From Candidatus Eremiobacterota bacterium (GTDB lineage Bacteria > Vulcanimicrobiota > CADAWZ01 > Ess09-12), in NCBI GenBank assembly GCA_031082125.1, contig JAVHLM010000007.1, positions 1-64,000 of the forward strand: a stretch of DNA of 64,000 nucleotides, written 5' to 3'. The notes below the pieces were generated by a model that was not told the DNA's origin, searched no databases, and worked only from the letters and a program-made list of their open reading frames with translations. Numbering within the stretch: position 1 is the stretch's first letter; every line of letters starts with the position of its first letter. This document shows, in pieces, positions 59,639 through 63,335 of the stretch. The position numbers were made by a program, and so were the translations under genes.

Positions 59639-61528
59639 TTAATTTTTCACATGATATTCAGCATCAATTATGTCATCATCTCTCTGGCCTTCGCCCTGGC
59701 GCCCCTGTCCCTGGGGGCCGTGACCGTAAGCGCCATAAGATCCGCCGTCGCCGCCTGTGTTGCATGTGCCTGACGAGCAGCCCTGGTGGCTCTGCTGCTG
59801 GCCGTAAGCCTTTGACGAGAGCTCATAGACTGCCTGGGTGAGCTTCTCCATATCGGCCTTGATCCTGGTGGAGTCTTCCCCCCTGGCGCTTGACCTCAGG
59901 TCGCTTATGGCGCTCTCTATCTTTGAGCGCATTGAGCTGTCAAGGCTCGAGCCCAGATCTCTCATGGTCTTCTCCGTGGTGTAGATGAGGCTCTCAGCGT
60001 TATTCCTGAGCTCCACCATCTCACGGCGCTTCCTGTCCTGTGACTCGTATTGCTGGGCATCGTTTACCATGCGCTTCACATCCTGATCGCTCAGGTTTGT
60101 CGTGGCCTTGATCTGGATATTCTGCGTATTTCCCGTGGCCCTGTCCTTGGCCGTCACCTGGAGTATGCCGTTGGCGTCTATGTCGAAGGCCACCTCGATC
60201 TGCGGCATTCCCCGCGGAGCCGGCGGGATGTTGGACAGCACGAACTTCCCGAGGCTTTTATTGTCGGCGGCAAATTCCCGCTCGCCCTGGAGCACATGGA
60301 TATCCACAGCAGGCTGGTTGTCAGCGGCAGTCGAGAAGATCTCCGACTTTGAGCACGGTATGGAAGTGTTTCTGGGAATGAGCTTTGTCATGACTCCTCC
60401 AAGCGTCTCAATGCCGAGAGTGAGGGGGGTGACATCGACGAGCACCACATCCTGCACTTCTCCGGAGAGCACTGCCCCCTGGATTGCCGCGCCAAGCGCC
60501 ACGCATTCGTCAGGGTTGATGTCCTTATTAGGCTCTTTCCCAAACCGTGATCTCACATAATTCACTATCATGGGCATCCTTGTAGCGCCCCCTACCATAA
60601 GAACCCTGTCAATATCCTTTGGATCGAGCTTTGCGTCCGCCATAGCCTGGTTCACGGGCCCGGCGCACATCTGGACGAGATCTGCCGTGATTTCCTCAAA
60701 TTTTGCCCTTGTGACGGTCATATCAAGGTGCTTCGGTCCATTCTGGTCAGCCGTGATGAAGGGAAGGTTCACCTGCGTCTGGAGCACCGTGGAAAGCTCT
60801 ATTTTTGCCTTTTCCGCTGCTTCCTTGAGCCTCTGCAGTGCCATCCTGTCATGCTTCAGGTCTATGCCCTGCATTCTTCTGAACTCCTCAGTAAAATGGT
60901 TTATGAGCTTCTGATCCCAGTCATCACCGCCAAGGTTGGTGTTCCCCGACGTTGACTTCACCTCGAAGACACCGTTTCCTATCTCCAGGATTGACACGTC
61001 GAAGGTGCCGCCGCCCAGGTCAAATACAAGGACCGTGAGGAGCTCTTCCTGTTTGTCAAGGCCGTATGCAAGGGCGCTTGACGTGGGCTCATTGATAATT
61101 CTCAGGACCTCAAGCCCCGCTATCTGGCCGGCATTCTTGGTGGCCTGCCTCTGGGAGTCATTGAAATATGCGGGAACGGTGATGACCGCCTTGGTGACCT
61201 TCTCGCCAAGGTAGCGCTCGGCATCTTCCTTCAGCTTCTTCAGAATCATCGAGGATATCTCTTCAGGCGAGTAGCCTTTCCCGTCTATGGACACCCTGTA
61301 GTCGGTGCCCATTTTCCTCTTGATGGATACTATGGTCCTGTCCGGGTTGCTGATGGCCTGCCGCTTTGCAAGCTCTCCCACGAGCCTCTCTCCATTCTTG
61401 GAAAAGCCCACTGTCGAGGGGGTTGTTCTCCCACCCTCAGAATTGGCGATTACCTCGGGCTTCCCTCCCTCCATGACTGCCACGACGGAATTGGTTGTTC
61501 CCAGGTCTATTCCCACTATTCTAGCCAT
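59639..61528 (-). CDS. dnaK: Chaperone DnaK (Hsp70)
   Basis: 629 residues, complete. The ATPase domain has Gly-Ile-Asp-Leu-Gly-Thr-Thr-Asn-Ser, Asp-Leu-Gly-Gly-Gly-Thr-Phe-Asp and Val-Gly-Gly-Ala-Thr-Arg. The substrate domain and lid follow, and a Gly/Gln-rich tail ends in Asp-Asp-Asp-Ile-Ile-Asp-Ala-Glu-Tyr. It folds proteins with DnaJ and GrpE, neither of which is next to it; the following minus-strand gene is unrelated and a terminator closes the unit. GAGGAGGG precedes the ATG, and a HAIR-like operator lies in the leader. Confidence 0.96.
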
Positions 61529-61546
61529 ACTGAATCCCTCCTCATT

Positions 61547-61567
61547 GTTGAGCGTTATTGGCTCAAC
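61547..61567. promoter_or_regulatory. HAIR-like inverted repeat in the dnaK leader
   Basis: GTTGAGC (61547-61553), seven bases, and GCTCAAC (61561-61567) form a perfect seven-base inverted repeat. HspR operators (HAIR) have the form CTTGAGT, seven bases, ACTCAAG; the inner TTGAG/CTCAA and the spacing match. It lies about 20 bases before the dnaK start, next to the ribosome site. Confidence 0.65.
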
Positions 61568-61697
61568 TAATTTGTAAAATTTGTTTCACATTTCATTAGA
61601 TGTAATAGTAAGACAATAGATTCATGACATCAGGGAGGGAAAAAGAAGTGGTCGGGTGGTCGGGGGCTCATAGGGTAAAGGAATGAGAGCCTTGTCG

Positions 61698-63335
61698 TTA
61701 CGGCACGGGCACTGCCGCTTTCTTCAGAAACATAAGGTGTGACTCGGTGACAAAGGGCTTGAGGAACTTTGAAAATGCGTTCCGCCTGCGGGTATTCTCA
61801 ATCATTGCCGTTGCCGTGTCGGCGCTGATGCTCCCAGTGGCAAGGTACCTGAAGGTGGTGAGAAGATCATAGTCCATGGTCCGTTCCTCAACCTTTTCGA
61901 TACCGTAAAGGGAGGGATTCCTGTATACATCGGTATTATCGGTGAGAATGAACTTTCCCGGCGCTATCATATCTATAAGGTCATTGTGCTCCGCGATGAA
62001 TTCCAGTGTTGCCGCCGCCTCTTCAGGCTTTTCACCGGGAAATCCAAGGAACAGGAAAATCCAGTTGAGTATGCCGGCCCGGTGGGCCCGGGAGAGGATT
62101 TTCGCCGCCAGTCGGTGATCATACCCCTTGCGCATAAGATCAAGGACACGCTGGCACGATGATTCCATGCCGTAAAGAAGAAAGCGGCAGCCTGCCCCTG
62201 CGGCTTTCTCAAAGTCAAGCCTCTCCAGGGACTTGTCAAACCTTACCTCGCCACCCCAGTGAAACCTTGGAGGTGCGGAGGGAAGAAGTTCCGCCAGACC
62301 ACTGATGATGGCCGGAGGAACGGCGTCATCGACAAAATAGAAGTGTGACGCCCCCGTGGCGGCCGCCATGCTCTCCATTTCCTTAATCAGCCTTGCAGCC
62401 TTTTTCATGCGGAATGACGAGAGGCTCATGGAATGATTGCAGAAGGCGCAGCGGTTCCAGTAACAGCCCCTCGAGGCCGACAGGGGAAGATAAATCTTGG
62501 GTGAGAAATAGCGCCCCAGAGGAAGGCCCTGGAAGTCAGGCGTGGGAAGGTCATTTACCGGCAGCGGCGCAGGGGGTGCCACGGTCCCCATGTGTTTCTT
62601 CCCTTCAGGAAATATGATGCCGGGCACCGTATGAAGGCTTTTCTTCTGCGCCACCGCGTCGGCAAGGGCCAGCAGTGGAACCTCGCCTTCATATACTATG
62701 AAAGAGTGGCAGCAGGAAAAAAGCTTTCTTTTATATGCAAGCATGGCGCCCAGGTGGGTTATCATACTCCCTCCCATGGTGACATGCACTGCGGGAAGGC
62801 GTGCCACGAGAAGCCTGCCCAGGGTGAAGGCCGGTATTATCTGCGAAGGCCAGCTCACCGAGATCCCTATAAGTTCCGGCTTCTCTTCGAGAATTGCGGG
62901 GAGGGCCTCTTTTTCGAAGAATTCAATATAGGGGTTCTTCTGATAGTCCCGCGTAGCTCTCAGCACCTGCTCCGATGAGGATGTCCTGTATTCCATCCGG
63001 AAGTCTTTCAGGTCAAGCGAGGTCCCCTCATGGCGCATCCCGATCTCTCTGAGCATATTGGTGAGGAGTGTGGTGCTCCAGTAATATTTGTCCTCCCTGA
63101 GGTATTCCTCCCCTGAGCGGAGGTGGCCCAGGGCCTCGCTTATCAGCGAGAAAACGGCGTCAGGCTTGTTGGAAAGGAATTCCGGGGAGAGGAAATACTC
63201 GTAGGAGGAGAGATTCAAGTCCATCAGGGAGACTTCATGGGTGCTCCCGGCCCTGAGGTATGCCGAAAGGGAGGGAAGGGCAAGGTGGGGGAGAAATGGC
63301 TGTGCCTGCGGGGGGAAGAGGAGAAGGACCTTCAT
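61698..63335 (-). CDS. B12-binding-domain radical SAM protein
   Basis: About 545 residues from ATG 63335, which follows GAAGGAGG closely. The N-terminal part is a B12-binding Rossmann domain (Val-Leu-Leu-Leu-Phe-Pro-Pro, Leu-Ile-Gly-Ile-Ser-Val-Ser, Val-Thr-Met-Gly-Gly). The radical SAM core holds Cys-Tyr-Trp-Asn-Arg-Cys-Ala-Phe-Cys, with four residues rather than three between the first two cysteines. Such enzymes methylate or rearrange peptides, lipids or cofactors; the substrate is unknown. It is coupled by four bases to the NHL-repeat gene upstream. Confidence 0.8.
   Translation of the reverse strand: MKVLLLFPPQAQPFLPHLALPSLSAYLRAGSTHEVSLMDLNLSSYEYFLSPEFLSNKPDAVFSLISEALGHLRSGEEYLREDKYYWSTTLLTNMLREIGMRHEGTSLDLKDFRMEYRTSSSEQVLRATRDYQKNPYIEFFEKEALPAILEEKPELIGISVSWPSQIIPAFTLGRLLVARLPAVHVTMGGSMITHLGAMLAYKRKLFSCCHSFIVYEGEVPLLALADAVAQKKSLHTVPGIIFPEGKKHMGTVAPPAPLPVNDLPTPDFQGLPLGRYFSPKIYLPLSASRGCYWNRCAFCNHSMSLSSFRMKKAARLIKEMESMAAATGASHFYFVDDAVPPAIISGLAELLPSAPPRFHWGGEVRFDKSLERLDFEKAAGAGCRFLLYGMESSCQRVLDLMRKGYDHRLAAKILSRAHRAGILNWIFLFLGFPGEKPEEAAATLEFIAEHNDLIDMIAPGKFILTDNTDVYRNPSLYGIEKVEERTMDYDLLTTFRYLATGSISADTATAMIENTRRRNAFSKFLKPFVTESHLMFLKKAAVPVP

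Follow-up and report, generated by a model that had tools for sequence, protein, structure and literature searches.

A HAIR-like palindrome in the leader of a second dnaK gene is a probable HspR operator in a Candidatus Eremiobacterota bacterium

A perfect palindrome lies just upstream of a dnaK gene in an uncultured Candidatus Eremiobacterota bacterium. Its layout recalls the HAIR operators of the heat-shock repressor HspR, which raises the question of whether the gene is under HspR control from a repressor encoded elsewhere. The window is the whole stretch of DNA analysed, 64,000 nucleotides (C7:1-64000), taken from a source genome (G000) of 7.43 Mb in 69 contigs. The initial annotation placed GTTGAGC, seven bases and GCTCAAC at 61547-61567 in the dnaK leader, and a direct reading bears this out. 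The exact letters are GTTGAGC GTTATTG GCTCAAC with perfectly symmetric arms, and the dnaK open reading frame (ORF) starts with an ATG at 61528 on the minus strand, 18 bases from the palindrome. The features of the locus are:

59639..61528, minus strand: dnaK2, a stand-alone second dnaK copy of 629 aa, above the cut-off of the NCBIfam DnaK model
61534..61541, minus strand: likely ribosome site GAGGAGGG of dnaK2, found by eye between the operator and the ATG
61547..61567, no strand: HAIR-like operator, the proposed HspR binding site of dnaK2, read directly from the sequence
61568..61630, minus strand: AT-rich stretch, the putative dnaK2 promoter region, from sequence reading

The palindrome by itself, without context, is weak evidence for HspR. 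The Streptomyces HAIR consensus is given as CTTGAGT-N7-ACTCAAG, and its arms are described as needed for HspR binding, with an arm mutation de-repressing the target in H. pylori (PMC6102357, PMC7464140, as far as excerpted). The layout of an HspR site, as first annotated, is present in the TTGAG-N9-CTCAA core that is shared with Streptomyces, but the match to the full consensus reaches just 10 of 14 letters; the arms end in G and C here (GTTGAGC) and in C and T there. Taken by itself this match lacks significance, since 24 of 300 dinucleotide-shuffled 200-base leaders reached the same score. The window has nine perfect palindromes of this 7-7-7 layout. Because such palindromes are common and shuffled leaders reach 10/14, the case for an HspR operator rests on context. 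Genome-wide, the core has 38 sites, and all except the window palindrome are inside ORFs of at least 100 aa, these being mechanical ORFs and not curated genes. By the same count, TTGA[G/C]-N8-GCTCAA occurs at 36 distinct places, 34 of them inside such ORFs. The remaining two are the dnaK2 leader in the window and the leader of an operon that contains hspR.

The genome has five MerR-domain genes above the Pfam cut-off (on C19, C5, C15, C4 and C10). All are outside the window, consistent with the annotation of no hspR gene there. A genome-wide search for a MerR-type hspR, the check that had been suggested, recovered the strongest of the five on contig C19 (L001:1456-1824, 122 aa). Among NCBIfam models its product matches HspR best, at 95.8 bits, short of the 105 that the equivalog cut-off requires; the fused-dimer HspR model is second at 92.1 and the best non-HspR family reaches 51.9. 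The gene stands last in a grpE-dnaK1-hsp20-dnaJ-hspR operon, directly after dnaJ, which is where hspR usually lies. Upstream of grpE, CTTGACAACATGAGGCTCAAC is embedded within TTGACA-N17-TATAAT, a 12/12 sigma-70 promoter. The -35 box serves as the left half-site, and four bases separate the right half-site from the -10 box. This site is one letter off the TTGAG-N9-CTCAA core and its arms are unequal. TTGACA-N17-TATAAT has 63 sites in the source genome, and only the one at grpE carries the right half-site. As in Streptomyces, a MerR-type HspR is encoded last in a dnaK operon and dnaK promoters are the targets, here by prediction (the comparison extends to the portions of the Streptomyces literature consulted).

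The same arrangement recurs in relatives. Of 148 genomes in a phylum-wide sample, 14 have HspR at E 1e-15 or better, among them the source genome; a scan of the genome collection returned four HspR loci, all from uncultured bacteria and apparently G001-G004 again. The promoter-embedded form TTGACA-N8-CT[A/C]AA-N4-TATAAT is present in 8 of the 14 genomes with HspR and in none of the 134 without. The Fisher p of 6e-10 overstates this association, given that the relatives are not independent of each other and that sites from seven of the same genomes served to shape the pattern. Ten of its 11 copies stand before grpE, dnaJ, dnaK or hsp20. They precede grpE in six genomes and dnaJ in two (with hspR behind dnaJ), and G007 has further copies before dnaK, hsp20 and a small zinc-ribbon gene (Zn_ribbon_8). 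Six of the 14 HspR genomes are without the exact form. Two of these relatives with HspR, G015 and G048, have the repeat directly upstream of the grpE -35 box; in G048 it reads GTTGAGCCAACTAGGCTAAAT, whose first ten letters are those of the dnaK2 site in the sense direction. No clear site was found in G012 and G032, and the operon-start comparison left out the incomplete genomes G005 and G016. Comparison of the relatives' leaders thus supports what the initial annotation had asked of them, since HspR-bearing genomes keep such repeats at grpE, dnaK or dnaJ promoters.

The Streptomyces consensus by itself is a poor means of telling leaders with HspR from those without. Among 30 leaders, the two of the source genome score 10 of 14 each, seven HspR-bearing relatives 9-11, and twenty leaders without HspR 7-10; G032, with a weak HspR, scores 7, and G012 was scored on its dnaK leader, not its grpE leader. 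A second pattern, CTTGA-N10-CTCAAG, was set aside: in 13 HspR genomes its sites were mostly coding at the loci checked, and two (L169 and L177) were flagged intergenic. G007 encodes two HspR-type proteins, and the 7.5 kb examined at the gene on C28 (L111) showed no match to dnaJ, dnaK or grpE.

The dnaK of the window is a second dnaK, different from that of the HspR operon, a point absent from the initial annotation. Its product scores 949 bits against the curated NCBIfam DnaK model NF001413 (cut-off 648). Three DnaK copies of the genome are relevant: dnaK1 in the hspR operon, the stand-alone dnaK2, and dnaK3 behind hrcA. The dnaK2 product is 71% identical to that of dnaK1 and 59% identical to that of dnaK3. 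When 30 DnaK proteins were placed in a tree, dnaK2 branched as the sister of the order's dnaK1 clade (support 98/95), and it therefore looks like an old duplicate. In three genomes of the same order (G001-G003) one DnaK copy has 70-71% and another 57-58% identity, and so these genomes are without a second copy of the dnaK2 type. An orthologous dnaK2 was found in no other genome; the fourth other sampled genome of the order, G004, is 69% complete.

Reading the dnaK2 leader from the palindrome to the gene, GAGGAGGG is likely a good ribosome site. On the other side, the AT-rich stretch probably holds the promoter. A promoter scan of 61500-61720 found no sigma-70-like site. Because none was found around it, the dnaK2 operator seems to be downstream of its promoter, unlike the other sites.

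The earlier suggestion that the same repeat might precede clpB or other heat-shock genes holds for the grpE-dnaK1-hsp20-dnaJ-hspR operon and fails for clpB, before which there is no HAIR with up to two mismatches. None was found at this threshold before the ClpC-type gene on C10 either, and the starts of three other hsp20 genes have no HAIR-like repeat. One two-mismatch HAIR upstream of the window's own ClpC-type gene (27448) was rejected as lying inside the preceding ORF. A TTGAG-N9-CTCAA site about 175 bases before an hsp20-like gene at C5:262779 was dropped as a candidate operator for the same reason.

With these results, the palindrome is very probably the operator of the HspR encoded elsewhere in the genome, which would repress dnaK2 at normal temperature. 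The hspR gene, the repeat at its operon and the relatives support the HspR control of dnaK that was proposed at the outset; binding to the palindrome and repression are what we infer from the established behaviour of HspR. Several observations stand against this reading. The HspR match of 95.8 bits is below its cut-off of 105, clpB is without the repeat, the dnaK2 promoter is unrecognised by the scan, and the site is further downstream than in relatives. The non-significant match to the Streptomyces consensus, the six HspR genomes that have no exact promoter-embedded form and the failure to find an orthologous dnaK2 for comparison also count against it.

The mechanism would be as follows. At normal temperature an HspR dimer would sit on the dnaK2 palindrome, one subunit per TTGAG half. 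Transcription would be blocked either by cover of the start region or by HspR acting as a roadblock shortly after the promoter, for a start site whose position we infer. HspR would also sit over the -35 box of the grpE-dnaK1-hsp20-dnaJ-hspR operon and shut it, and would therefore limit its own synthesis. On heat shock HspR would be released, and both DnaK copies would rise together. DnaK is a corepressor of HspR in Streptomyces, and the same role here would close a feedback loop. It is conceivable, if rather doubtful, that the operators diverged in build after the dnaK duplication, with a symmetric downstream roadblock at dnaK2 against a site woven into the -35 box in most HspR-bearing relatives. 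On this reading, if both DnaK copies are corepressors of HspR, the result would be a two-branch feedback loop on one repressor.

Alternatively, the palindrome could act as RNA. In the 5' leader of dnaK2 it would form a 7-bp stem capped by a loop of 7 nt that stabilises the message or senses temperature, and folding of the leader RNA does predict such a stem, near the ribosome site. However, it leaves the ribosome site uncovered, shuffled leaders fold with energies as good as the real one (z -0.85), and the leader has no Rfam match up to E 1. The sister site of the hspR operon also disfavours an RNA hairpin, since its arms are unequal and it lies between the -35 and -10 boxes, so that it is not transcribed from its promoter. 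We regard an RNA role as improbable.

It is very unlikely that the palindrome serves another regulator, either HrcA or a further MerR-type protein. HrcA is present in the genome, as are the four other MerR-domain genes, and CIRCE, the HrcA operator, has a similar inverted-repeat layout and likewise lies immediately upstream of a chaperone gene. Its sequence is different, however, and no CIRCE site (TTAGCACTC-N9-GAGTGCTAA) with up to four mismatches occurs in the 1500 bases before dnaK2. The repeat of dnaK2 is shared with the hspR operon and with HspR-bearing relatives. HrcA is disfavoured because CIRCE-like repeats, of different sequence, stand before the groES genes instead. Both groESL operons carry this variant, TTAGCAAT...TTGCTAA, with three mismatches to CIRCE (L136:1501-1527 and 1631-1657 on C4; L181:1513-1539 on C17). 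In the 800 bases scanned before hrcA there is no CIRCE with up to five mismatches. The hrcA operon (C3) has a thermosome-like chaperonin between hrcA and grpE (L104:1998-3560, 520 aa; PDB 5x9u, E 5e-131), followed by grpE, dnaK3 and dnaJ. The chaperonin is similar to the 'group III' chaperonins that bacteria encode in hsp70 operons.

Chance is a highly improbable explanation. The nine 7-7-7 palindromes of the window speak for it, and so does a relative: in G001 a perfect 14/14 HAIR consensus at C44:18414 (L153:1501-1521) forms the centre of a longer inverted repeat with A and T runs at its flanks, between two minus-strand flagellar-looking genes, and is therefore probably a terminator. This is a warning that HspR sites should not be called from the repeat alone. 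Against chance, the only two intergenic sites of the source genome both fall on the leaders of dnaK operons. That the palindrome is itself an intrinsic terminator on the plus strand, as a simple scan flags it, has a near-negligible probability, given its poor T-tract (TAATTTGTAA) and neighbour genes that are on the minus strand on both sides, so that no plus-strand gene reads into it.

The probable HspR operator can be compared with known heat-shock systems in the parts of the literature consulted. Streptomyces also differs in that here clpB has no site and a stand-alone second dnaK has its own. S. coelicolor is described with three HAIR repeats per promoter region and one repeat was found here (PMC7464140, in excerpt). 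Campylobacter jejuni and Helicobacter pylori also have HspR and HrcA in one genome and imperfect-arm HAIR-like repeats near heat-shock promoters. According to the same excerpts, the two repressors share promoters in these species (PMC7464140, PMC6102357). In contrast, the HAIR-like repeats here are at dnaK genes and the CIRCE-like repeats at groESL, and the two sets were not seen to overlap. As a side observation, the zinc-ribbon gene of G007 (C208, L152) encodes a small Zn_ribbon_8 protein with a charged tail under an HspR-type promoter, and a similar-looking small gene is located just upstream of groES in the source genome (L181:908-1303, C17). Both recall Ruc (Rv0991c) of M. tuberculosis, described as a zinc-ribbon, redox-controlled chaperone repressed by HrcA (PMC7448276, in the portion consulted).

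The literature collection searched yielded no paper on HspR in Eremiobacterota or Eremiobacter, or on heat shock in Vulcanimicrobi- groups. The type of switch is known, and what seems new is the lineage, seemingly unreported, and the second dnaK copy. The finding brings HspR control to an uncultured lineage on which the search gave no report. TTGACA-N8-CT[A/C]AA-N4-TATAAT offers a compact signature for calling HspR targets from sequence. Within one genome, HspR and HrcA seem to divide the chaperones, the dnaK copies on one side and groESL on the other. The locus is also a case in which a duplicated dnaK seemingly stays under the repressor of the other copy by way of an operator of different build.
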